From positions 1-64,000 of the forward strand of contig JACQBG010000040.1 in assembly GCA_016194585.1 (NCBI GenBank): 64,000 nucleotides of DNA, written 5' to 3'. The stretch comes from Gemmatimonadota bacterium. GTDB taxonomy: Bacteria; Gemmatimonadota; Gemmatimonadetes; Gemmatimonadales; Gemmatimonadaceae. Shown here piece after piece: positions 10,901-33,081 of the stretch (position 1 is its first letter; each line of letters starts with the position of its first letter). The notes under the pieces were generated by a model that saw only the letters and a program-made list of their open reading frames with translations, did no database searches and was not told the DNA's origin. Made by a program: the position numbers and the translations under genes.

Positions 10901-11221
10901 ATGACACCCGATCGAATGGAGTTGGCCCCCGGCGCCCTCGGCTTCGCGGCCGCCACCATGGCCGCAGCGCTGTTCGCCCTGTGCGCCATCGCAGCTGCGG
11001 TTGCTCCGGAGACCGCGACCACCGCCCTGCATCGCCTCTTCGACATGGATCACGCGAGCCTCGTGCGTCCGTTCTCGGCCGGTGTGTTCGTCCAAGGGCT
11101 GCTGTGTGTGAGCGTCGGCAGCGGGCTGACGTTCGCCGCGATCGGTGTCCTGTACAACCGCTTCCTCGGACGGTCGAAGACGAGGCTGGGCAACGCCGGT
11201 GACGAGGCCGAATCGGTATGA
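10901..11221 (+). CDS. Small membrane protein (DUF5676-like) preceding the copper ATPase
   Basis: 106 aa. The start at 10901 has a CAGGAG ribosome site. Two hydrophobic segments (~12-35 and ~65-90) flank a short loop. It overlaps the ATPase start by ATGA. Proteins of this size and shape commonly precede copper-exporting ATPases; the DUF5676 label is from memory of that context and is tentative. A role as a small ATPase partner is inferred. Confidence 0.65.
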   Translation: MTPDRMELAPGALGFAAATMAAALFALCAIAAAVAPETATTALHRLFDMDHASLVRPFSAGVFVQGLLCVSVGSGLTFAAIGVLYNRFLGRSKTRLGNAGDEAESV

Positions 11222-13287
11222 CCCACGCGCATCACACGCCCGACGACCCGAATCGTCCGGGTCACGCCGATCACGAGGCGGCGCACGGCGCCGCTTCACG
11301 GGAAGCGCTTGGGGCCGCGCTCGACAAGCACGCGGGCCACTCCGTCGCGATGTTTCGCCGCCGGTTTTGGCTGGCGCTCGCGCTCACGGCTCCGACGATC
11401 ATCTGGGGCGAGATGATGCCTCGCGTGCTCGGGTTTACGCCGCCGATCGTGCCTGGGGCGCGGTGGATTCCGGTCGTGTTCGGAACCGCTGTGTTCGTGG
11501 TGGGCGGGTGGATCTTCGTGCAGGGGGCGTGGCGCGAGGTCCGTGACCGCCGACCGGGGATGATGACGCTCATCTCGCTCGCGATCACCGTCGCGTTCGT
11601 GTTCAGCCTCGCCGTGACCGTCGGGTTCCCCGGCATGCCACTCTGGTGGGAGTTGGCGTCGCTCGTCACGATCATGCTGTTCGGACACTGGATGGAGATG
11701 CGTTCCGTGTCGCAGGCGCAGGGCGCGCTCAGAGAACTGGCCAAGTTGCTGCCAGACGTCGCCACGCGACTCGTGGACGGAACGCCGGTCGAAGTGCCGC
11801 GTTCGGCGTTGCAGGAGGGCGACTTGGTCCTGCTCCGGCCGGGAGCGAGCGTCCCGGCGGATGGCGTGGTGCGCGACGGACGGACCACGATGAATGAGTC
11901 GATGATCACGGGGGAATCGCGGCTGATCGAGAAGCGGATCGACGACAGCGTGATCGCCGGGACGGTCAATGGCGACGGGTCGCTGCGCATCCAGGTCACG
12001 CGCACGGGGGAGCGCACGGCGCTCGCCGGGATCATGCGGCTGGTGGCCGAGGCGCAGCAGTCGCGGTCGCGTGCCCAGGTCTTGGCCGATCGCGCGGCGT
12101 TCGCTCTTACGCTCGTCGCCATCGGGGCAGCGCTCATCACCGGTGTCACCTGGACGGTGCTGGGCGCCGCACCGAGCTTCGTGATTGAGCGCGTCGTCAC
12201 CGTGCTCGTGATCGCGTGTCCGCACGCGCTCGGCTTGGCAGTGCCGCTCGTCGTGGCCATCTCGACCACGATCGGCGCTCGCAGCGGACTCTTGGTGCGG
12301 GACCGACGGGGCCTTGAAGAGGCCCGGACGATCGGCACAGTCGTCTTTGACAAGACGGGAACACTCACCCTCGGCGAGCACCGCGTCGTTGCCATACGTA
12401 CCGTGGACGGCGGTGCTGACGATGCAATGTTGCAGTTGGCGGCGGCCGTGGAGCAGGACGCCGAACACTCCGTGGCGCGCGCGATTGTCGCGAGTGCGGC
12501 CGCGCGGGGCCTGATGTTGCCACGCACGCAGGAGTTCGCCGCGATGCCGGGCTTCGGCGCGCACGCCCTCATCGACGGGCAGCGCTACGCGGTCGGCGGA
12601 CCCAGTTTGCTCACGAAATTCGCAATCGAGGTGCCATCGTCGCTGATTCCGTTCAGCGAGGATGCCACGGCGCGAGGGGAAGCCACCGTCTACTTGATCG
12701 AACAGCAGCGCATCCTCGCCGCGTTCGTCGTGGCGGACGCCGTGCGACCCGAAGCCGCCGAGGCCGTGCGGGCGCTGCAGGCACGTGGCATCGAGGTCGT
12801 CATGCTCACGGGCGACGCGAGGCGTGTTGCGGAGGCCGTCGCGAAAGCGGTCGGCATCCAAACGGTGTTCGCGCAGGTGTTGCCCGCTGAGAAAACGGAC
12901 CTGATTCGGTCGTTGCAGGCGAAGGGTCAGCGCGTGGCGATGGTCGGCGACGGCGTCAACGACGCCCCCGCGCTTCTCACCGCCGACGTGGGAGTAGCGA
13001 TCGGCGCAGGGACCAGCGTCGCCGTCGAGGCGGGTGACATCGTGCTCGTCGGCAATGATCCGCGCGCCGTCGCGCGCATCATCGCGCTCAGCGCCGCCAC
13101 CTATCGAAAAATGGTCCAGAATCTGTGGTGGGCGGCGGGCTACAATATCGTAGCCATTCCGCTGGCTGCGGGGGTTCTCGACCGCTGGGGCCTCGTGCTC
13201 AGTCCGGCGGTCGGCGCCGTACTCATGTCCGTCAGTACAATCATTGTGGCGATCAACGCGCAGCTACTACGTCGAGCGCCGCTGTAA
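11218..13287 (+). CDS. copB: Copper-exporting P1B-type ATPase, CopB type
   Basis: 689 aa. The N terminus is a short His-rich tail (MTHAHHTPDD...HADHEAAHG) in place of CxxC metal-binding domains. The membrane metal site is CPH (C334), typical of CopB-like (P1B-3) pumps linked to Cu(II)/Ag export, in contrast to CPC in CopA. TGES, the phosphorylation motif DKTGT (D378) and GDGVNDAPAL are intact. The usual SEHP His-Pro motif reads AEHSVA. It lies in an operon with the small membrane protein and heads a group of copper genes on both strands. Confidence 0.93.
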   Translation: MTHAHHTPDDPNRPGHADHEAAHGAASREALGAALDKHAGHSVAMFRRRFWLALALTAPTIIWGEMMPRVLGFTPPIVPGARWIPVVFGTAVFVVGGWIFVQGAWREVRDRRPGMMTLISLAITVAFVFSLAVTVGFPGMPLWWELASLVTIMLFGHWMEMRSVSQAQGALRELAKLLPDVATRLVDGTPVEVPRSALQEGDLVLLRPGASVPADGVVRDGRTTMNESMITGESRLIEKRIDDSVIAGTVNGDGSLRIQVTRTGERTALAGIMRLVAEAQQSRSRAQVLADRAAFALTLVAIGAALITGVTWTVLGAAPSFVIERVVTVLVIACPHALGLAVPLVVAISTTIGARSGLLVRDRRGLEEARTIGTVVFDKTGTLTLGEHRVVAIRTVDGGADDAMLQLAAAVEQDAEHSVARAIVASAAARGLMLPRTQEFAAMPGFGAHALIDGQRYAVGGPSLLTKFAIEVPSSLIPFSEDATARGEATVYLIEQQRILAAFVVADAVRPEAAEAVRALQARGIEVVMLTGDARRVAEAVAKAVGIQTVFAQVLPAEKTDLIRSLQAKGQRVAMVGDGVNDAPALLTADVGVAIGAGTSVAVEAGDIVLVGNDPRAVARIIALSAATYRKMVQNLWWAAGYNIVAIPLAAGVLDRWGLVLSPAVGAVLMSVSTIIVAINAQLLRRAPL

Positions 13288-13342: not shown

Positions 13343-14608
13343 TCAGAGCGGCACGGCGATGGCCTCGATGGCCTTCAAGCTCGAACCGAACTGCGCGATC
13401 GCTCCGCGATGCTTCGCCAGCGCGCCGTACGGAATGAACCGGACGGCGAGATCGCCGATCCGCTGGAATGCGGGACGGGCCAACTGCGCTCGCACGTCCG
13501 CCTCTCTCGTGTCCGGCGCCACGAGAAAGAGCCCGTGCGCGGATCCAGAGCCCGCGCCGAGGGCCAAATCGAGAAGCCTGACGATTCCGCTGTAGATCGA
13601 CGTCGTGTGTTCCACCTCGAACGCGGCACAAACGTTGCGCGTGCTACGGTCCAGCCAGAGAACGTCGATCAGCCGAATGGCCTCCGCTCCCGGCCCGTCC
13701 CGCAAGCGGGCCGGGAGCTCAGTCATGCATCCGTCGCCCAGAAGGCCGTCGCCGAACCGCCGCCCGCGATCATTGCTCGCGATCCACACATCGAAGCCCA
13801 AGGCTCGGCCGAGGTCGCGCAGCCAACTTTGCACTTCGGTATGGGTGAGGTCATCGCTGGCGTCCGCAGGCGCGCCTGCCGCCGAAGCGGCCGCCACCGC
13901 GGCGTCGAGTGACTGCCGCCAGGTCAGCATCGCATCGGTTGCCGTCATCGGGTCACGCGGAGGCGCAGGATAGCGGTCGCAACCCATGTCATACAGAAAC
14001 CCCGCGATCGCGCCGAGATCGTTGGAGAGCAAGTCTCGGAACTCCGCCGTGAGCCGCACCATGCCCTCGCGCATGGCGAGGTAGGCGGGCCACTGTCCGA
14101 GTGGCACGCGAACGCCGGTCATCCGCTCATAGCCTCTCGCAATCGCCGTATTGCTGGGAGGCGCTATCGTGGGATGCAGAAAGTAGAGCAGATTGGCGGC
14201 CGCCGGCCCCAGGCCCTTGATGCACTTCGCATTGAGGCGATGGATCGCGCCGAGCACCTCCGTTTCGGTGTCGCAGCAGGCGCACGAATGCAGGAGGTCG
14301 GCGAAGGCCAGTTGGTTCTCGCGATTCTCGTAGATATCGGGAATGCGGAGCTTGGGCTTCCAAAGGAAGGCATGGTCGGCGCCCCGAAATACTTGACGCT
14401 GCTCGGCCACCGACTTCACCACGGTTTCCAGAGAGGATCCGCGGTACTGGCGTCCAAAACGATCGGCGCGGATATCCTCGACGACGACCGAGAGGCCACG
14501 ACGGATGCTTCGGAAATTCTTGAGGCGCTCTTCCCAGAGGAACCAACGCTGATACGAGCCGCCAGCGTCGCTGCGCCAATGTTCGATGAGCGTGCGGCGG
14601 GGATCCAT
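13343..14608 (-). CDS. Predicted nuclease-like protein: helix-hairpin-helix plus PD-(D/E)XK-like C-terminus
   Basis: 421 aa. Around residues 130-160 is a helix-hairpin-helix pattern (IKGLGPAAANLLYFLHP) like those of DNA glycosylases. The C-terminal part has an Asp (D315, RLIDVLWLD) followed by FEVEHTTS (E331, E333), which resembles a PD-(D/E)XK nuclease core in the D...ExE variant. I infer DNA binding and possibly cleavage. It sits alone between copper genes, convergent with copB, and does not look like part of the metal system; it may be a solitary restriction- or repair-type enzyme. Family name not recognised. Confidence 0.6.
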   Translation of the reverse strand: MDPRRTLIEHWRSDAGGSYQRWFLWEERLKNFRSIRRGLSVVVEDIRADRFGRQYRGSSLETVVKSVAEQRQVFRGADHAFLWKPKLRIPDIYENRENQLAFADLLHSCACCDTETEVLGAIHRLNAKCIKGLGPAAANLLYFLHPTIAPPSNTAIARGYERMTGVRVPLGQWPAYLAMREGMVRLTAEFRDLLSNDLGAIAGFLYDMGCDRYPAPPRDPMTATDAMLTWRQSLDAAVAAASAAGAPADASDDLTHTEVQSWLRDLGRALGFDVWIASNDRGRRFGDGLLGDGCMTELPARLRDGPGAEAIRLIDVLWLDRSTRNVCAAFEVEHTTSIYSGIVRLLDLALGAGSGSAHGLFLVAPDTREADVRAQLARPAFQRIGDLAVRFIPYGALAKHRGAIAQFGSSLKAIEAIAVPL

Positions 14609-14744: not shown

Positions 14745-16097
14745 CTACAGCGCGATACCGTCTCGGTGCAGTTCGTCCGCCGTGGCCTCGGCCGCGACGG
14801 TTCCAGGCGGGTTCTTGTACCACGCCGCGTCGCCCCCGACGGGCAAATGCTCTCGGATCTTCAGGATGGTGAACATTCCGCCCATGTCGATATAGCCGTG
14901 CGGGCCCGCGCCGCCGAGCATGGAGATCGCACCCACGGGAAGAGGCATGCCCATCTCGCCCATCCCACCCATCCCGGTATCGCCCATCGTCATGTAGTCC
15001 GGCAGCAACTTTGACGCCAGTGCGTCGATGGCGCTCGGGTCCGCCCCGACGAGATTCGTGCCGCTGTGCCCCATCTGATTCATCACGTGGTGTGTCATAT
15101 GGCAATGCATCGCCCAGTCGCCCGGATTGTCCGCGACGAACTCGACCGTCCGCGTCGTGCCGACGGGCACGAGCGTCGTCGCTTCCGGCCACTGGCTCGC
15201 CTCGGCAATGTCGCCGCCATCCGTGGCGACGACCCGCCAGCGGAGACCGTGCACATGAATCGGGTGGTGGCTCATCGCGCTCAGATTGCCGAAGCGGATG
15301 CGGACCCGCTCACCCAACTGCAGCTGCAGCGGCTCGGTGGCGGGGAACACTTTGCCGTTGAACGTCAGGAGGTTGAAGTCCGTCATCTCGTTGGGATCGG
15401 GGCGCGACGCGCCGATCGGCACACGCCATTCCGACGAGAGCAGTACGAAATCGCGATCCGGACGTCGCGCCGGATGCCGCGGATGCACGACGATCATGCC
15501 CATCAGGCCGAGTGCTTGTTGCACCATCTCGTCGTAGTGCGCATGGTACATTAGCGTGCCATGCTGCCGCAGTGTGAACTCATACTTGAAGGTCGCGTTG
15601 ACGGGGATCGGCGCTTGGTTCAGTCCGGCGACCCCATCCATCCCCGAGGGCAGGAGGACGCCGTGCCAGTGTACGCTCGTCGGCTCGGGCAGTTTGTTGG
15701 TGACGTAGATCCGCAAGCGATCACCCTCCACCGCTTCGATGGTCGGTCCCGGCGTGCGCCCGTTGTAGCCCCAGCAGGTGCTGACGAGGCCCGGAGCGAA
15801 CTCGTGCGTGATCGGCTCGGCCACGAGGTGAAAAACCTTGACGCCATCGACGATGTGAAATGGCAGGGTGACACCGTTCGGGGTGATCACGGGTGTGTAA
15901 TCGCGGTCGGGCTGGCCCGGCATCGGCGTTCGGTCCGCCGAGTCCGCGGGCGGTGCTTCGATCAGGCCCTGCTGCGCGAGCACGGAAGCCGGGCTCAGCG
16001 CCATCGCGCCACCCGCCAGCGCGGCCGCACTCTGGCACATCATCTCCCGCCGCGAGAGCCGCGCTGCGACCGGAGCACCCCCCGGGGTCGAGTGCAT
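14745..16097 (-). CDS. Multicopper oxidase (CopA-like, Tat-exported)
   Basis: 450 aa. A Tat signal (SRREMM followed by a hydrophobic stretch ending SVLAQ) directs folded export. All copper motifs are visible: HWHG, YHAHYDEM, HPIHVHG and HCHMTHH. The last carries the type 1 site. A Met/Gly-rich segment (MTMGDTGMGGMGEMGMP) near residue 375 resembles the Met-rich loops of cuprous oxidases. It probably oxidises Cu(I) in the periplasm. The start at 16097 has an AGGGAG ribosome site; an alternative ATG at 16118 overlaps the upstream stop. It follows the TolC-like gene in one operon. Confidence 0.92.
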   Translation of the reverse strand: MHSTPGGAPVAARLSRREMMCQSAAALAGGAMALSPASVLAQQGLIEAPPADSADRTPMPGQPDRDYTPVITPNGVTLPFHIVDGVKVFHLVAEPITHEFAPGLVSTCWGYNGRTPGPTIEAVEGDRLRIYVTNKLPEPTSVHWHGVLLPSGMDGVAGLNQAPIPVNATFKYEFTLRQHGTLMYHAHYDEMVQQALGLMGMIVVHPRHPARRPDRDFVLLSSEWRVPIGASRPDPNEMTDFNLLTFNGKVFPATEPLQLQLGERVRIRFGNLSAMSHHPIHVHGLRWRVVATDGGDIAEASQWPEATTLVPVGTTRTVEFVADNPGDWAMHCHMTHHVMNQMGHSGTNLVGADPSAIDALASKLLPDYMTMGDTGMGGMGEMGMPLPVGAISMLGGAGPHGYIDMGGMFTILKIREHLPVGGDAAWYKNPPGTVAAEATADELHRDGIAL

Positions 16098-16114
16098 CGA
16101 ATCGTCTCCCTTCC

Positions 16115-17473
16115 TCATCGCGTGTGCCCTCCAGGGAGCGCTCCGCCGGCGGCTCGTTCCAGTTCGGCGCGCCCGATCCAATAGTCGCGCAGCGCGTCGA
16201 GATACGCGCGACCAGCCTCGATCTCCGCCTCTTTCGCCTGCAGCAACGCGAAAATCGTGAGATCCATGGCGTTAACGTGTCGTTGCGCCTCGGCGAGTAC
16301 CCGTTCGCGAAGTGGTAGCACCACGGTGCGCAGCTGGCGCGCCCGCTGGCTCGCGTTACGCACTTGCGCTAGTCGTGTGCGCACTTCCGCGTGTACGTTG
16401 ACCACGAGCGCATCGTGCATTGCGACGCGTTGGCGCAGAACCGCCGCGGCACGGGCCACGCCGGCCCCACCGCGATCGAACAACGGAAGCGGCACGCTGG
16501 CGCTCGGGCCGGCGAACCTGCCGTCCGGCTCTCGCTCGAACGTGGCGCCAATCGTGCCATCCGCGAGGAATCGAAAGCTGGTGCTCAGGCCGAGCGTGGC
16601 GGCCGCCGCACGTGCGCTCTCTCGGGCCGCACCGATGTCGAGTCGGCGGGCCAGGGCGAGGGAATCGATGATTGCCAGCGTCCAATCGGCCGCATCCGGA
16701 TCGGCCAATCGTGCCGGAACGGTCCACCCTGAATCCGGCACGTCGGCGGCCATCAGCCGGGCGAGTTCGGCGCGCGCGCCGAGCAGCTCGCCCTCGGCAT
16801 CCATCACGCCGACAACGCTTTCGGCCGCCGCGGCCTCTTCACTCGCCAGCCGGAGGGCGGGTACGTTGCCTGCCGCCCGCAGTGCCTTCGCCGCAGTCGC
16901 GGCAACTTCGGCCGCGCTGGCGGCGGTACGCCGCAGTTCGACCACCTGCTGGGCATGCTGGACGGTCACATACGCCCGCTGGGCATCGACCGCCACGCGA
17001 AGCACGACATCCGCAATACGTAGCTCGGTGCTTGTCAACTCCGCCGCCGCCACGCGGCGACGGAGCGGTACCTGCAACGCACGTACGACCGAGAAGCCGA
17101 CGTTCGCGCTCGAAACGGCGATGCCGCTCGCCGGGAATGCGTACAAGGCGTCAAGCACGGGATTGGGGAAGGTACTCGCCTGCCAGAGGTCCGCCGCGGC
17201 GATGCCGACCTCCGCGAGCGCCGCGCGGATGTGCGGGCTTCGTAGGATGGCCAGTCGTACGGCTGAATCTGCGGCGAGCGGTCCGCTCGGGATGCGCGCG
17301 AGCGGCGCGGGCGAGGAATCTGGCGGGAACCACCCGGCAGGCATACCCGCGCGCGCCGTCACTAGCGTTGCGACGCCTTCGCTTCCACGGTGTGCCGCGG
17401 GCGGTATGCACGCGGTGCCTGCAAGAGCGGCGGCGGCGACCACTGCTCGTCGAATCGTACTTAAAGACGGCAT
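16115..17473 (-). CDS. TolC-like outer-membrane efflux lipoprotein
   Basis: 452 aa. A lipoprotein signal with lipobox LAGTAC is followed by two OEP-type alpha-hairpin/barrel repeats rich in Ala and Arg (heptad-like stretches ~95-220 and ~300-440). No inner-membrane RND pump or adaptor is encoded nearby. Its operon partner is the multicopper oxidase, so it may act with the oxidase or with a pump elsewhere. An operator-like dyad lies 30 bp upstream (17503-17517). The start at 17473 is chosen for the signal peptide; the frame remains open far upstream. Confidence 0.85.
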   Translation of the reverse strand: MPSLSTIRRAVVAAAALAGTACIPPAAHRGSEGVATLVTARAGMPAGWFPPDSSPAPLARIPSGPLAADSAVRLAILRSPHIRAALAEVGIAAADLWQASTFPNPVLDALYAFPASGIAVSSANVGFSVVRALQVPLRRRVAAAELTSTELRIADVVLRVAVDAQRAYVTVQHAQQVVELRRTAASAAEVAATAAKALRAAGNVPALRLASEEAAAAESVVGVMDAEGELLGARAELARLMAADVPDSGWTVPARLADPDAADWTLAIIDSLALARRLDIGAARESARAAAATLGLSTSFRFLADGTIGATFEREPDGRFAGPSASVPLPLFDRGGAGVARAAAVLRQRVAMHDALVVNVHAEVRTRLAQVRNASQRARQLRTVVLPLRERVLAEAQRHVNAMDLTIFALLQAKEAEIEAGRAYLDALRDYWIGRAELERAAGGALPGGHTR

Positions 17474-17517: not shown

Positions 17518-17641
17518 AGGTCACACTCGTCTCAAAGGAAATCGCCGGCGTGGCTCGTGTCAACCGTGTCGGCTCGTCCTTGTGCCGGCTCGCCCTGCCG
17601 ACGCGCCGTGTGCGAGGGTGCGGCGGCTTCGGCCGCGGCGC

Positions 17642-17656
17642 TTTACGAATGGTAAA
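17642..17656 (+). promoter_or_regulatory. BlaI-type operator-like site 3 (TTTACGAATGGTAAA)
   Basis: Perfect half-sites (TTTAC / GTAAA) separated by five bases, 61 bp upstream of the blaI-like start. Placement suits autoregulation, as is usual for BlaI/CopY-family repressors. Confidence 0.65.
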
Positions 17657-17716
17657 AGACCGGATAGATTCCTTGCAACGGCACGCGCGTGTGCCGGGCC
17701 CTCGCAGGGAGCGCAT

Positions 17717-18187
17717 ATGGCTGCATCGAAGAAACCCGCGGCGCGCGCCGCGGCGACACCCAAACTGCAAGACACGGTGCGCCTTTCCGCGGACGGGCTC
17801 GCCAAGGTGCTCGGCGATCTGGAGGCGCGTGTGCTGCGTGTCGTCTGGGCCCTCGGGCGTCCGGCCACGGCTCGGGACGTGCACGCGCGGGTGGTGCGGG
17901 CCCATCAGGTCTCTCCGCTCACGACTATCACCGTGCTCAATCGACTGGTCGCGAAGCACGTGTTAACGCGCACTCGCACGGACGACCGCTTGCACTATGC
18001 CGCGCGGCTCGACGAGCGCGCGTTCATGACGCATGCGTCACGACGCGTGATGGAAGGCATCGTATCGCTCGGGCCGGACGCCGTCGCGGCCTCCTTGGTG
18101 GATGTACTGGCGGAGCGCGATCCCCGACAACTCGAGGAACTCGCGCGGCTCGTGCGCCGGAAGTTGCGCGAACGCGGCGAACGTTAA
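17717..18187 (+). CDS. BlaI/MecI/CopY-family winged-helix repressor
   Basis: 156 aa. After a basic, Ala/Lys-rich tail, residues ~25-100 form the winged helix (LEARVLRVVWALGRPATARDVHARV...TTITVLNRLVAKHVL). The C-terminal part is the dimerisation region. The BlaR1-type protease is encoded four bases downstream, the standard pairing in which a membrane protease triggers repressor inactivation. With dyads at its own promoter and at six other points, it is the best candidate regulator of the copper and cytochrome genes in region 1. Start chosen at 17717 after a GGGAG ribosome site. Confidence 0.88.
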   Translation: MAASKKPAARAAATPKLQDTVRLSADGLAKVLGDLEARVLRVVWALGRPATARDVHARVVRAHQVSPLTTITVLNRLVAKHVLTRTRTDDRLHYAARLDERAFMTHASRRVMEGIVSLGPDAVAASLVDVLAERDPRQLEELARLVRRKLRERGER

Positions 18188-18191
18188 GTTG

Positions 18192-19238
18192 ATGCGCGGC
18201 GACGCGTCAGCGATTCTCCTGCCGCTCGTGCGCCGCGAGCAGCGCCACCGGCGGTTGGTGCTCCTGGCCCTCGCTCTGTTACTCGTCCTCAGTATCAGTC
18301 CGGTCGTCGGGCATCACCTGATCGGTGCGGTCCGCTGGTTGCCGGCGTCGCAGCAGCATCTGGGTATCATCTGCCTGGTCGCGCTCCATCACCTCCTGGC
18401 ACCCGTGCACGAAGCGACGCACGTCCTGCTGTACGCGGGCGTGATATACGCCGTCATCAACCGGAGCCGTGCCGCGTGGCGCCAGAGCGTCATAACGCGC
18501 GTCCTGGCGGTCGAGTTGCCGCCGGCTGACGCACCGTTGTCGGTCGCTGCGGCCCGCGTCGGGTTGGACCCAGCGCGGTTGCGTGTGGTGGGGGGGCTCC
18601 CGAACCCGGCGTTCACCACGGGGTGGTGGCGACCTCGCGTCTTTGTGGCGCGCGACCTTCCCTCCCGACTCTCACTGGATGAACTCGAGGCCGTGCTCGC
18701 GCATGAAGCCGAGCACGTGCGCCGGCGGGATCCGCTCCGCCTCTTTTTGCTGCGGACCCTCGCGGCCGTTCTCTTCTGGTTGCCAGCCATTCGGCGCCTC
18801 GTGGACGATCTCGGCGACGAGGTGGAAATCACCGCCGACGATGCGGCCGCACGGTCCCACGCGCTACCGCTTGCAGCCGCGATCCTCAAGATGGCGGGAG
18901 CCGACCTCGGCGTGCCGGATGTCAGTGTGGGTTTCCAGCGCGCCGATCTGTTCGAGCGGCGCATCCGGCGGTTGGCGGGCGAGGATGCGATGGTCGGCAC
19001 CCATGTGTCGCGCCGATCCATCGCCGCTGCCGCCGCCGCGCTGCTGGCAGTGTGGGTTTCCGGTGTCATCGTCCTGCATCCGTTGCCTGCGCCGGGCGAC
19101 CCCGTTTCCGCGGCCACCCATTGCGAGCATCCCGGCGCTTGGGCGATCTCCCACCTGTTCTGTCGAGGCCTGCACCCCACCGGGTCGTCAGAGCACTGCC
19201 CGCATGAACGTGCGGCGCCCTCCATCCCCTCTGCCTGA
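18192..19238 (+). CDS. BlaR1/MecR1-like M56 membrane metalloprotease
   Basis: 348 aa. Several N-terminal membrane helices are followed by the zinc-protease motif HEAEH (~residue 170) and the M56 signature region up to ADDAAA. One more helix (~280-300) leads to a short C-terminal periplasmic tail with four Cys and several His. It lacks the penicillin-sensor domain of true BlaR1, so it must sense something else; the Cys/His-rich tail is a candidate metal sensor (inference). It follows the BlaI-like repressor by four bases. Confidence 0.85.
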   Translation: MRGDASAILLPLVRREQRHRRLVLLALALLLVLSISPVVGHHLIGAVRWLPASQQHLGIICLVALHHLLAPVHEATHVLLYAGVIYAVINRSRAAWRQSVITRVLAVELPPADAPLSVAAARVGLDPARLRVVGGLPNPAFTTGWWRPRVFVARDLPSRLSLDELEAVLAHEAEHVRRRDPLRLFLLRTLAAVLFWLPAIRRLVDDLGDEVEITADDAAARSHALPLAAAILKMAGADLGVPDVSVGFQRADLFERRIRRLAGEDAMVGTHVSRRSIAAAAAALLAVWVSGVIVLHPLPAPGDPVSAATHCEHPGAWAISHLFCRGLHPTGSSEHCPHERAAPSIPSA

Positions 19239-21068: not shown

Positions 21069-22658
21069 ATGCGGCGTGATCCGGCGGGCGGCGAGCGAGC
21101 GATGAGGCCCCGGGTGGCACCGACGCATCGAGGATTGGGCCTCGGGCTGCGACTTGGTCTCCTCACGACCCTCGTCGTCGGCGGTGTGATGGCCGTCCTC
21201 TCCGGCGCGCAGCTCGCAGTAGAGCTGCGCACCGAGTTGCGCGAACGACGGGCGCAACTCGGAGAGTCTCTGGCCCCACTCGTCACGGATCTACGAAGTG
21301 CTTCCAAGCGCGACGACGTGCGCAGGGCCGTTGAGCGGTTTCACGCGTCCTATATGGACCAGGGGCACTCCTACCACTACCTGGCGGTCGTCGACTCCTC
21401 CGGCCGGTTCGTCCTCGGCACACGCGACGACGGCAGACACGGACCACACGCCTTGCTGACGGCCAGCGTGTCGTTCGTTTCCCCGGCTTTCGGACCCCGG
21501 CCCGTCGTGCTGAGCATCACGGTGGATAGCTTTGACTTTTCCGCCGCTCGTACCCGGCGGTGGAGGGCCTGGGCGGTGCATGTTGGCGTGACGGCGCTGC
21601 TGATCGTGGCGCTGCTGATCATCGTGATTCGTCGCGAGGTCACGGGGCCGATCGGGCGGCTCTTGGATGGCGTCCACAAGATGGAGCTGGGGTACTGGGA
21701 CGACATGCCGGATCCCGGTGGCGCCTGGGAGCTCCGCTGGCTCGGTTGGCGTTTCCGCAGCCTCGGGCACGAGCTGAGTCGTACGGTCGAGCTGCTTGTC
21801 GCCGCGCAACGGCGCGCGTATGCCATGGAGCGAGACACGCATGCGGATACCGAGGCAACCGACACGGGACTACCCCGGGTCGCCGTTTCACCGGTCCACT
21901 ACGATTCAGGCGACGCCATCCCTTGGCTCCGGGCGCAACTTGAACGCCTCCGAGGCACCGAAGCCGGTGACGCAACGACCCGATCGTTGGCGCAGGTCAT
22001 CCTGGACCATTATGCGACTGAGGCGGAGAGGCTCGGCCAGACCGCGCTGCGCATGGGTCTCGAAGACGCCGCCCTGCGCGTGCTTGATCCGGAGCGCTTC
22101 CTCAACATCTCAGGGCGGATCGAGGCGGATCGCCCCAGGCTCGAAGCGCTGGCTCAAGCGCGCGCGGCACAGATCCACCGCGCCCTGGCTGTGCAGGGCG
22201 TGCCGATCGTCGAGATGTGCCACCGGGTCAAGCACCCGGCGGGCATATGGAAGAAGATGCACCAGAAGCATCTGACGTTCGAGCAGGTTCACGACCTCGT
22301 CGCGCTGCGCATCGTTGTGCCGACGGAGACGGACTGCTACCACGCGCTCGGCGTCGTTCACGACCTGAACGCACCGATCGTTGGTCGCTTCAAGGACTAC
22401 ATCGTCCAACCCAAATCCAACGGATATCGGGGGTTGCACACGAGTGTACGTGACCCAGCGGGGGCGGTGTTCGAGGTACAGGTGCGCTCGATCGCGATGC
22501 ACCGGCACGCCGAGCAGGGGTCGGCCGCATACGCGGATTACAAACACGCGACGCGAGTCCCAGTGAGCGCGGGGCGCGCGGCCCCTTGGAAACGCCTCTT
22601 GGCGCTGTTCGGCGGCGGTCCGCCGCACGGCAAACGTGAGAGAGACGGCTCCCACTGA
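21069..22658 (+). CDS. Membrane HAMP sensor fused to a RelA/SpoT (p)ppGpp synthetase domain
   Basis: 529 aa from the ATG at 21069; a start at 21102 is equally possible, as neither has a clear ribosome site. Two membrane helices (~20-45 and ~167-188) enclose a ~120-residue periplasmic sensor region. A HAMP-like segment follows (REVTGPIGRLLDGVHKMELG). Residues ~330-500 match the RelA/SpoT synthetase: CHRVKHPAGIWKKM, DLVALRIVV, GRFKDYIVQPKSNGYRGLHT, FEVQVRS and HAEQG. The RFKD motif is the form found in bifunctional Rel/SpoT enzymes. There is no HD hydrolase and no TGS/ACT region. Predicted role: making (p)ppGpp in response to an envelope signal. The domain order is seen; activity is inferred. 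Confidence 0.85.
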   Translation: MRRDPAGGERAMRPRVAPTHRGLGLGLRLGLLTTLVVGGVMAVLSGAQLAVELRTELRERRAQLGESLAPLVTDLRSASKRDDVRRAVERFHASYMDQGHSYHYLAVVDSSGRFVLGTRDDGRHGPHALLTASVSFVSPAFGPRPVVLSITVDSFDFSAARTRRWRAWAVHVGVTALLIVALLIIVIRREVTGPIGRLLDGVHKMELGYWDDMPDPGGAWELRWLGWRFRSLGHELSRTVELLVAAQRRAYAMERDTHADTEATDTGLPRVAVSPVHYDSGDAIPWLRAQLERLRGTEAGDATTRSLAQVILDHYATEAERLGQTALRMGLEDAALRVLDPERFLNISGRIEADRPRLEALAQARAAQIHRALAVQGVPIVEMCHRVKHPAGIWKKMHQKHLTFEQVHDLVALRIVVPTETDCYHALGVVHDLNAPIVGRFKDYIVQPKSNGYRGLHTSVRDPAGAVFEVQVRSIAMHRHAEQGSAAYADYKHATRVPVSAGRAAPWKRLLALFGGGPPHGKRERDGSH

Positions 22659-23442: not shown

Positions 23443-24039
23443 TCATGCTGTGCGCGCGGAACCGCTCGTCGCGCCGCGTAGCAACAGCACGCCCCCCACG
23501 AGGGCGAACACGATCAGGCCGATGATGACGGTCCATGCTCGCGATGACGTGACGACGCGAATGTCGGCCGGGGCTGCCGTGGCGCGACTCTCCATGACAT
23601 GCATCGTAGTCATGTCCGGCATCCTGGTCATCGAAGGGACCGCCGCCGCTTGGACGGGTCGCAGCACGAGATTCTCCTGCGCCGAGACATCGCCGTCGGA
23701 GGCGATCGCCACGACACGATATGCGCCCGGTTTGGCGTCGGCCGGAATCGGCAGGCGCATTTCGAACTTGCCGGCCGCATCCGTATGCACGCTCCCGAAC
23801 GGGAAGGTCTTCAGCGCTCCGCGTATCTCGATGCGAAGCGCCGCGCCCTTTGCGAGTTTGCTGCCTCGAGCGACCAGCGTGTCGCCGGGGGCGGCCTGCT
23901 TGGTATTGAGCGTCAACACGCCCTTCTCGTGCGCGAAGAGCGGCGTCGCGGCGAGCCCGATGGCGGCGAGGGTGAGCGCCACGCCGAGGCGCCATCGCAG
24001 TTGGGTAAATCGACCTGGGGCAGACACCGGCGACCTCAC
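23443..24039 (-). CDS. Exported beta-sandwich protein with a C-terminal membrane anchor
   Basis: 198 aa from a GTG that overlaps the stop of the cytochrome b gene (GTGA). A signal peptide (ending PLFAHEKG) precedes an Ig-like domain (~35-125: APGDTLVARGS, GKFEMRLPIPADA, AYRVVAIASDGD). A Met/Thr-rich linker and one C-terminal helix (VIIGLIVFALVGGVLLL) with a basic tail follow. It probably stands on the periplasmic face of the inner membrane as an accessory subunit of the cytochrome b protein. Longer in-frame starts would lie within the cytochrome gene. Confidence 0.65.
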   Translation of the reverse strand: MRSPVSAPGRFTQLRWRLGVALTLAAIGLAATPLFAHEKGVLTLNTKQAAPGDTLVARGSKLAKGAALRIEIRGALKTFPFGSVHTDAAGKFEMRLPIPADAKPGAYRVVAIASDGDVSAQENLVLRPVQAAAVPSMTRMPDMTTMHVMESRATAAPADIRVVTSSRAWTVIIGLIVFALVGGVLLLRGATSGSARTA

Positions 24040-25133
24040 ATTCCGAGATGTTGCATCTGCGGCGCAAACACGCCGTAGACAATGCCCGCGATATATGCCA
24101 GCAGCACGAGCATGCCCAGCCCCATCACCCATCGCGGCCGACCGGCCCCCTGGTCATGTCCCCGATCGAGCAACGGCACCGCGGCGAGGAAGCCAAACAG
24201 CACAATCGGCGCGATGAGCATCCCGGTCATGCCCACCGTGTTCTCGACCGCATAGATCCACAGAAACGGCCACGCGGGCTTCGTCACTTCGACCCCCTCG
24301 ACGCCCGGATGTCCAAGCACCGCCGGAAACACGGCCGCCAAGATGCCGAGGCCGGCGCACAGGAACAAGCCGAACGCCGTCAACCGGCGCACGTGCTGCG
24401 TAAAGCGCGCGGTCTTCGCCTCGTGCGAATGAATCCCGTGGACGCGAATGAGGGCGAAATGTCCGAGAACCAACGCGAGGAGCACCAGCGGCAGCACGCT
24501 GACGTGCAGGCTGTGCAGCCGGGACAGCAGGGTCGTGCTCGACGTGAAGTCCGGGGTCAGCACGGCTCCACCGGGCGACATCTTGGCGCCGGCGACCGCG
24601 TGCGCGAGCGCTTCGACGGCTTCCTGATCCCCCTTGAGCGTGGTGCCCGTGAACATCAGGCCGAAGACCGTGATGAACAGCCCGACGCCCAGCCACCACG
24701 TCACCTCACGTGGCCGGGTATAGCTCCGCCGCCAGAATACGTAGAGGATGTGAAAAAACAGCGTGACGAACACTACGGTCGCAGCCCAATAGTGGATCGA
24801 GCGCACCCAGTTGCCGAGCGGTACGCGCGTCATGATGTACACGACGCTGTCATAGGCGGACAGCGGCTCGGGATTGAAGAACTGGTCGAGGAGCACCCCG
24901 GTACCGATCAATGCCAGAAGACCGACGAAGGTCAATCCACCGAGCATGTATGGCAGCCGGTTGGCGGATGGCGGGATCGCATAATCGAGAGCGCGCACAC
25001 CCAAGCGTCCGGCGATGGAGTGCTCGGGCACGGCGGCATGTGCGGACGAGGAATCCGGTACGACTCCATCATGTGCGGCGATGGTGCCCGCCGATGGGAC
25101 CGCGCCCGCGTCGTTCGGGGCCGACGATGACAT
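24036..25133 (-). CDS. Cytochrome b (bc/b6-type) membrane subunit
   Basis: 365 aa. A polar N-terminal tail of ~50 residues precedes a four-helix cytochrome b core with two His pairs (RSIHYWAATVV / LFFHILYVF and HSLHVSVLP / LGHFALIRVHG). C-terminal helices follow. No cytochrome c domain and no Rieske gene accompany it, so it may act as a stand-alone quinol-linked b-type cytochrome or pair with subunits elsewhere. A GGAGG ribosome site precedes the chosen start. A BlaI-type dyad lies 47 bp upstream. Confidence 0.85.
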   Translation of the reverse strand: MSSSAPNDAGAVPSAGTIAAHDGVVPDSSSAHAAVPEHSIAGRLGVRALDYAIPPSANRLPYMLGGLTFVGLLALIGTGVLLDQFFNPEPLSAYDSVVYIMTRVPLGNWVRSIHYWAATVVFVTLFFHILYVFWRRSYTRPREVTWWLGVGLFITVFGLMFTGTTLKGDQEAVEALAHAVAGAKMSPGGAVLTPDFTSSTTLLSRLHSLHVSVLPLVLLALVLGHFALIRVHGIHSHEAKTARFTQHVRRLTAFGLFLCAGLGILAAVFPAVLGHPGVEGVEVTKPAWPFLWIYAVENTVGMTGMLIAPIVLFGFLAAVPLLDRGHDQGAGRPRWVMGLGMLVLLAYIAGIVYGVFAPQMQHLGM

Positions 25134-25179
25134 GGAGATGTATCCTCCGGGAGGAAGGCACGTGATACGACGCGAATGC

Positions 25180-25194
25180 TTTACGCAGTGTAAA
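25180..25194 (-). promoter_or_regulatory. BlaI-type operator-like site 5 (TTTACGCAGTGTAAA)
   Basis: Perfect half-sites (TTTAC / GTAAA) around five bases. On the minus strand it overlaps a possible -35 (TTTACA), so binding would block the leftward cytochrome b promoter. Confidence 0.65.
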
Positions 25195-25407
25195 ATACGC
25201 ACCGCGGCCACCGCTGTCTAGTCCCGCCGCCTCGTGTACGCCGCGGAACGCGCTTCGGCCCAGCCTCCGCTCCTACGCGTCGCGGCGAGACTATCGTGCG
25301 ACTAGTCGTCGTCACAGGGGGCTGCAACAGGCGCGGCTCGCAGCGCGCAATCGTTCGCTGTCAATAACGGTGCAAAATGTCCGCGCGGGATTGCGGCCGA
25401 CTGGCAT

Positions 25408-31475: not shown

Positions 31476-31951
31476 ATGCCGAAGCCACCACGCCGAACGA
31501 AGCCCGCGAAGAAACACTCCACCCCGCGCCCGGAGGCCGAGGCATCGGCATCACTTCCCGCACAGCCGAACTGGCGGCTCGGAACCGCCGAGCAGCTGTC
31601 ACCTGCTGTCGTTGTGCGTGAGCCGCTGGGAGCCCTGCACCAGCTCGCGCTCGCGCGACTTCCATATCACGTGGCCATGGATCTTGTGGGAACCATCGCG
31701 GAATCTCACGACGCGGAGTCCACGTTGATCAATACCGCCGTCCCGAGCCTCCGCACGCTGATCCCGTCAGGACACGTTTCGGTGGTGGAAAGCGAGCGAC
31801 TGCTGCATGTCGGTCGGCTCTTCGTGATCCTCGAGGCTGCGTACGGAAAGCCGCTGGCGCTCAGAAGTGGTCTCGGTTTTCTGAACAGCTAGGATAAGTG
31901 GACAAGCGGGCTCCCCGGGCGACATCTTCGCCCACTACCCAGGAGCTCCTG

Positions 31952-32257
31952 ATGCCGAAACGCCAACGCCGGAACCACGCCCCCGCCTTCAAGGCCAAGG
32001 TCGCCTTGGCCGCCGTCCGCAACGAGGGCACGCTCGCCGAGCTGGCCAAGCGCTTTGATGTGCACCCCGGGCAGATCACCGCCTGGAAGGACCAGTTGCT
32101 GAGCGGTGCCGCCGACGTGTTCGCGGAGGGCGGCCGGCGCACCGAGCCGCCCGTCGACGTGAAGACGCTGCATGCGAAGATCGGCGAGCTCGCGCTCGAG
32201 AATGATTTTTTAGAACACGCGCTCGGCAAGGCCGGCCTGTTGAGCGCCAAGCGATGA
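31952..32257 (+). CDS. IS3-family transposase OrfA
   Basis: 101 aa. An HTH (AFKAKVALAAVRNEGTLAEL...HPGQITAWKDQL) is followed by a leucine-rich coiled coil (LHAKIGELALENDFLEHAL). It ends ATGA-overlapped with orfB, from which a fused OrfAB could form by -1 frameshifting as in other IS3 elements. AGGAG ribosome site precedes the ATG. Confidence 0.93.
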   Translation: MPKRQRRNHAPAFKAKVALAAVRNEGTLAELAKRFDVHPGQITAWKDQLLSGAADVFAEGGRRTEPPVDVKTLHAKIGELALENDFLEHALGKAGLLSAKR

Positions 32258-33081
32258 TCGACCGGACGCACCCGCTGTCCCTCACGCGGCAGGCCGCCGC
32301 GCTCGGGATCAGTCGCGGCGCGGTGTACTACGTGCCGCGCGCCGCCTCGGCGGGCGATCTCGCCCTGATGCGGCGACTCGACGCGCTGCATATGGAGATG
32401 CCCTGGTTTGGCGCGCGCGGCCTGCGGCGCGTGCTCAAGCGCGAGGGCATCTACGTCGGCCGCCGTCGTGTCGGCACGCTCATGCAGCAGATGGGGATCG
32501 CGGCGATCTGCCCGCAACCCGGGACGAGTCGCCGGCACCGCGGCCACCCCGTGTACCCGTACTTGCTCCGGCATCGCACGATCACCGCGCCGAACGCGGT
32601 GTGGGCGATGGACATCACGTACATCCCGATGGCGCGCGGCTTCGTCTATCTCGCCGCCGTGATGGACTGGGCGAGCCGCCGCGTCTTGTCCTGGCGCATC
32701 TCGATCACGCTCGACAGCGCGTTTTGCATCGCGGCGGTCGAGGAGGCCATCGCGCGGTACGGCCGCCCGGAGATCTTCAACACCGACCAGGGCGCCCAAT
32801 TCACGAGTGCCGCGTTCACCGGCCTGCTCCTCGATCACGGCATCCGCCTCAGCATGGATGGGAAGGGCTGCTGGCGCGACAACGTCTTCGTCGAACGGCT
32901 CTGGCGCTCGCTCAAGTACGAAGAGGTCTACCTGCACGGCTACGACACGGTCTCCGCCGCCACGGCGGGCATCGGGCGCTACCTCACGCTCTACAACACC
33001 CGCCGGCCCCACTCGAGTCTCGCGGATCAAACCCCCGACGAGGCATACTTCTTCCCACGGTCGCTCTCCCTGGCGGCCTGA
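32254..33081 (+). CDS. IS3-family transposase OrfB (DDE integrase)
   Basis: 275 aa. N-terminal HTH_21-like part (MPWFGARGLRRVLKREGI), then the rve integrase core with D (WAMDITYIP), D (FNTDQGAQFTS) and E (NVFVERLWRSLKYEEV). The catalytic triad is intact and the frame complete, so the element is probably active. Confidence 0.95.
   Translation: MIDRTHPLSLTRQAAALGISRGAVYYVPRAASAGDLALMRRLDALHMEMPWFGARGLRRVLKREGIYVGRRRVGTLMQQMGIAAICPQPGTSRRHRGHPVYPYLLRHRTITAPNAVWAMDITYIPMARGFVYLAAVMDWASRRVLSWRISITLDSAFCIAAVEEAIARYGRPEIFNTDQGAQFTSAAFTGLLLDHGIRLSMDGKGCWRDNVFVERLWRSLKYEEVYLHGYDTVSAATAGIGRYLTLYNTRRPHSSLADQTPDEAYFFPRSLSLAA

Follow-up and report, generated by a model that had tools for sequence, protein, structure and literature searches.

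Whether a single bacterial protein can both perceive a signal in the cell envelope and synthesize the alarmone (p)ppGpp is the question raised by one gene of a Gemmatimonadota bacterium, situated in a 64,000-nucleotide stretch of contig JACQBG010000040.1 (positions 1 to 64,000; hereafter the window). The gene had been predicted to encode a transmembrane HAMP sensor fused to a RelA/SpoT homologue (RSH) synthetase.

Gene model and domain organization

The frame proposed in the original prediction (21069-22658, plus strand) is open as described, extending from 20952 with no stop codon throughout, while its start is revised. ATG 21102 is the likely initiation codon rather than 21069, since the Gemmatimonadota homologues begin at the same methionine and a GGCGG-type site lies upstream of it ( Table 1 ). 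The deduced protein consists of a first transmembrane helix (TM1), an alpha/beta region of ~120 residues, a second transmembrane helix (TM2), a divergent HAMP domain, a variable linker, RSH-type helices and the synthetase domain (SYNTH), beyond which it continues for ~35 residues. Pfam detects no HD domain in its 518 residues, TGS and ACT are absent too, and the alignment to TIGR00691 covers only positions 133-319 of the 687 in that model, that is, the linker helices and SYNTH, in line with the original prediction. The fusion is not direct, as had been stated: ~25-35 variable residues and ~100 residues of helices, the RSH helical core, separate HAMP from SYNTH. The structure model of the whole protein is of moderate confidence (pLDDT 75, pTM 0.41, 12 sequences in the alignment). 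The claim that sensor, HAMP and SYNTH are joined in one protein stands. A separate, canonical bifunctional Rel is encoded in the same genome.

Table 1. Coordinates of the fusion gene, its predicted parts and neighbouring genes in the window.
Feature	Coordinates	Strand	Basis or remarks
P-type metal ATPase	11218..13287	+	PF00122/PF00702; homologues adjoin the fusion in L050 and lie near it in L059
Multicopper oxidase	14745..16181	-	Neighbour of the fusion
Outer-membrane efflux protein	16118..17431	-	PF02321
BlaI-type repressor and M56 peptidase pair	17582..19238	+	Neighbours of the fusion
Fusion CDS, 518 aa (2TM-periplasmic domain-HAMP-linker-RSH synthetase)	21102..22658	+	Alternative starts 21069 or 20952
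TM helix 1, residues 18-36	21153..21209	+	Hydropathy; AF2 helix 14-56
Predicted periplasmic sensor domain, alpha/beta, residues 37-157	21210..21572	+	Hydropathy, model, Foldseek
TM helix 2, residues 158-176	21573..21629	+	Hydropathy; AF2 helix 144-195
Divergent HAMP and its C-terminal helix, residues 177-249	21630..21848	+	Family profile, conservation
Variable low-confidence linker, residues 244-268	21831..21905	+	pLDDT<50 at 244-266
RSH-type helical linker/core, residues 269-370	21906..22211	+	TIGR00691 from position 133; Foldseek matches with catalytic domains of Rel
RelA_SpoT synthetase domain, RXKD type, residues 374-483	22221..22550	+	PF04607
Cytochrome b	24036..25211	-	PF00033

The synthetase half

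Searching with the RelA_SpoT profile, set beforehand as a refutation test, gave a strong match (PF04607, E 9.3e-36, 123 bits against a cut-off of 27 bits), and the synthetase motifs quoted in the original prediction are all present. The same profile matches 12/12 intact members of the family. Catalytic positions are kept in the window copy (R375, K377, K385, D398, K431, K438, Y442, H446, E458, Q460 and R462, equivalent to R241, K243, K251, D264, K297, K304, Y308, H312, E323, Q325 and R327 of Streptococcus equisimilis Rel) and in all 12 fusions except for K431, which is retained in 11; the guanine-stacking tyrosine is invariant. The enzyme core for (p)ppGpp synthesis is thus apparently intact. 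Positions 443/444 in the G-loop are R/G, against Q/S in the long RSHs compared, and position 465 is A, S or G in some members. The motif is of the RXKD form (RFKD in the window protein), which has been tied to a preference for GTP (PMC3153485).

The domain is of the long-RSH type, scoring 184 bits with the spoT_relA model versus 30 bits with the model of the small alarmone synthetase (SAS) YjbM, whose cut-off is 320. Foldseek searches with the fusion model likewise place Rel catalytic domains on top (S. aureus Rel 7oiw, E 1e-17). In a SYNTH tree of 37 domains, a single branch with support 100/100 has the 12 intact fusions on one side and 25 long RSHs on the other, among them the genome's own Rel and E. 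coli RelA and SpoT; the tree is unrooted, so that this separation alone is no proof of a clade, and several long branches call for caution on its details.

Sensor half, HAMP and linker

The two membrane helices and the extracytoplasmic region of ~120 residues were recovered as two hydrophobic segments separated by a 121-residue loop, and the topology predicted from hydropathy and the AF2 model is that of two TM helices flanking a periplasmic domain. Pfam calls a HAMP domain in 2/12 family members (best E 1.7e-5) and not in the window protein. The family profile, in turn, matches solved HAMP structures (Tsr, 7.7e-6; NarQ, 0.002; Af1503, 0.027), P183 and E210 are invariant, and this stretch is the best conserved of the sensor half, its conservation across groups equalling that of the enzyme. 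On these profile matches the HAMP domain following TM2, as originally proposed, is judged real though divergent.

The model of the N-terminal half (pLDDT 82) retrieves in Foldseek an integrative WalK model first (E 8e-6), followed by weak matches to all four chains of the Ag(I)-bound CusS sensor domain 5ku5 (E 0.008-0.015). Comparison of profiles between this domain and CusS gave no significant relationship (hhalign probability 1.9%), and the resemblance to CusS is a weak structural lead. The BaeS_SmeS model matches the fusion protein with E 7e-5. Three histidines, H81, H89 and H92, do not vary within the six-member clade holding the window copy; the cluster is lost in L046-L049 and absent from the copies of genomes G874 and G1005, and H160 is kept somewhat more widely. 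The ligands of CusS are H42, F43, H176, S84, M133, M135 and H145 (PMC10100754), and any correspondence of the conserved fusion histidines to these residues is conjectural.

In cross-genus pairs, dN of the periplasmic domain is about 0.14-0.41 versus dS of 0.45-1.3, dN/dS is 0.14-0.5 for the sensor and roughly 0.1-0.25 for HAMP and SYNTH, and in most pairs the linker has dN close to dS, with a ratio near 1. By these ratios purifying selection acts on sensor, HAMP and SYNTH and spares the linker. A degenerate copy is ruled out for the window fusion by this selection and its intact residues.

Recurrence and distribution of the fusion

Surveying related genomes for the same fusion yielded 11 other intact full-length copies with 31-72% identity, distributed among Gemmatimonadota relatives, a Leptothrix metagenome-assembled genome (MAG) and the phylum of an 'Oligoflexia' MAG. 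Three come from genomes of another genus within the family of the window genome (L004, L005 and L030, with 72, 71 and 72% identity), one from the Leptothrix MAG (L023, 64%), one from the 'Oligoflexia' MAG (L024, 46%) and six from five further genomes of the latter's phylum (L044-L049, 31-39%). Genome G1492 has an additional copy interrupted by a scaffold gap. Full-length homologues in independent assemblies rule out an assembly join between two genes or a chance open reading frame, and make it very likely that the fusion represents a real, undescribed type of receptor. A frameshifted relative, reflecting decay or sequencing error, occurs in G747 (L042/L059) beside a metal-ATPase/CusF cluster. 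The genome carrying L024 also has a separate 477-aa frame (L040), whose RelA_SpoT domain is divergent (E 1.8e-12) and which contains masked stretches.

With the sensor half as query, 14/14 matches at E <= 1e-12 lie on an RSH synthetase, including one broken by a scaffold gap and one frameshifted; since each sensor match is coupled to SYNTH, the two halves travel together.

Members of the family are rare and patchily distributed. They were found in 4/394 genomes sampled from the class of the window genome, 3/11 of a second genus, 2/401 of the Leptothrix family, 6/284 of the phylum of G407 and 3/174 of the class of G837, samples that overlap and whose counts are not additive. An actinobacterial phylum sample gave 0/149, an empty answer without a positive control. 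A plasmid-borne family was considered and rejected, no full-length match being found among 72,556 plasmid records, as was a viral one, viral contigs containing no relative. The window and Leptothrix fusions are 64% identical, compared with 38% identity over its length between the Rel of the window genome and the SpoT-like RSH of the Leptothrix genome. Together with the patchy distribution, this difference suggests that the fusion has moved horizontally, provided that the 13-kb Leptothrix contig, which may have been misbinned, belongs to that genome.

Genomic setting

The fusion had been placed in a metal and respiration island, and the window bears this out with genes for a metal ATPase, a multicopper oxidase and efflux ( Table 1 ), as well as Rieske, cytochrome b/c and NrfD genes and a further cytochrome b gene. 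A restriction-enzyme-like gene (13343-14608, minus strand, 421 aa) has no Pfam match and a C-terminal PADLOC REase_II match (E 3e-10); its homologues occur near the fusion in L050, L052 and L056, and a short piece in L023. A transposase-like pair lying some 9 kb downstream of the fusion (31898-33081, plus strand), a short ORF followed by a gene with an rve integrase core, is consistent with a mobile setting.

In L050-L052 the fusion is the last gene of a tight operon with DUF411, COX2-like, 4Fe-4S, COX2-cytochrome c and DUF1573-like genes (assigned with Pfam in L050 and by similarity in L051 and L052), among which no oxidase subunit I was seen. In L050 (9034-14197) the products preceding the fusion are a CuA-like COX2 cupredoxin, a NosR/NapH-like 4Fe-4S membrane protein, COX2-cytochrome c and a DUF1573-like protein, and a metal ATPase directly follows the operon. 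DUF411 and an RND pump are encoded near the Leptothrix fusion, a metal ATPase, CusF, a cupredoxin and MerR near the frameshifted copy, and MerR near the more distant copy L056. Neighbourhood comparison revealed no metal genes at L057/L058, where Pfam covered part of the genes, nor beside the G874 and G1005 copies. Homologous proteins of ~186 aa with two apparent TM helices, a HAMP-like region and no recognised output domain are encoded at L053:3251-3817, immediately upstream of the fusion, and at L056:4839-5396. Altogether, six fusion loci are set among copper or cytochrome genes, an association that is suggestive only, because three same-genus loci are not independent.

Proposed mechanism and alternative readings

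The protein is predicted to be a one-piece transmembrane receptor that makes (p)ppGpp upon an envelope signal, a reading to which we assign a probability of about three in four. The periplasmic domain, predicted to be PAS/CusS-like, would detect the signal, and TM2 and HAMP would pass the change inward. The cytoplasmic SYNTH, no longer under the usual control of HD, TGS and ACT domains, would then make (p)ppGpp near the membrane from ATP and, as its RXKD motif indicates, GTP, being activated by release or in a dimer-dependent manner. The separate bifunctional housekeeping Rel would act as the eraser of the product. Topology, synthetase activity, ligand control and crossing of the linker by the signal are what we infer, and ligand-controlled alarmone synthesis appears the most economical reading. 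In the clade of the window copy the signal may be stress from copper or in the respiratory chain, a tentative lead drawn from the six copper or cytochrome settings and the weak resemblance to CusS.

The route of signal transmission is the weak step, because the linker is flexible, unlike the rigid helix usual after HAMP. A disordered, fast-evolving linker, as modelled, speaks against the proposed receptor, and the signal would probably cross it through dimer geometry or proximity rather than along one rigid helix. An unconstrained linker would also fit a constitutively active synthetase tethered to the membrane, with TM and HAMP segments as anchor and dimeriser and output set by expression, for example from a copper-regulated operon, instead of ligand. 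The L050-L052 arrangement points the same way, since expression could carry the signal where the gene closes a tight operon with CuA-like COX2 and cytochrome c genes. Purifying selection on the periplasmic domain and a HAMP as conserved as the enzyme would be needless for an anchor, which makes this main rival rather unlikely.

Two further readings concern the output. Long RSHs are known to lose one of their activities, and SYNTH might similarly be a catalytically silent domain of a membrane sensor, binding nucleotides or (p)ppGpp for regulation; the G-loop Q to R and S to G changes and the A, S or G that some members have at position 465 agree with this, but retention of the catalytic Lys, Arg, Asp, Glu and Tyr residues across deep divergence renders it highly improbable. 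The same low standing is given to a toxin or anti-phage alarmone synthetase of the toxSAS/CapRel kind with a membrane half. In PADLOC, SYNTH matches the candidate system PDC-S33 (E 3e-12) and the restriction-enzyme-like gene recurs near the fusion, yet SYNTH is of the long-RSH rather than the SAS type, Pfam scans of nearby genes show no antitoxin-like domain, viral contigs lack relatives, and HAMP plus sensor is the anatomy of a receptor.

Comparison with known systems

The fusion shares linker helices, SYNTH, catalytic residues and the RXKD motif with the long RSHs Rel, RelA and SpoT, and has HAMP, two TM helices, a predicted periplasmic domain and a separate SYNTH branch where these have HD, TGS and ACT. 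Small alarmone synthetases (RelQ/YjbM, RelP) are also synthetases without hydrolase, but they lack TM or sensor domains. The mycobacterial RNase HII-synthetase is a known precedent for a fused synthetase without hydrolase. Transmembrane diguanylate and adenylate cyclases with HAMP follow the same plan of periplasmic sensor, TM2, HAMP and nucleotide-messenger output, the output here being an alarmone synthetase. CusS/BaeS-type histidine kinases have in common the 2TM topology, HAMP and possibly a related sensor fold, whereas the fusion has no kinase. Exported alarmone synthetases are likewise RSH-family synthetases linked to the envelope, but are secreted enzymes (PMC12691689), while the fusion synthetase is predicted to be cytoplasmic and receptor-attached.

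No description of a HAMP/TM-RSH fusion was found in the open-access literature, subscription papers being outside the search, and the text of a 2011 RSH survey contains neither "transmembrane" nor "HAMP". In the literature considered, (p)ppGpp enzymes are either regulated from within the cell or secreted. The sensor module being always found with the synthetase, the system is tractable, with one gene, one product and one assay. It is possible, if far from assured, that the family turns an extracytoplasmic signal, perhaps Cu(I) or damage to the respiratory chain in the clade carried on islands, directly into (p)ppGpp and has spread horizontally with copper islands; the stringent response would then possess its own envelope receptor, independent of the ribosome and of charged-tRNA sensing. 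If the receptor reading is true, the alarmone would rank with c-di-GMP and cAMP among the messengers that membrane receptors produce, and envelope or metal stress would have a direct, testable route to growth arrest.
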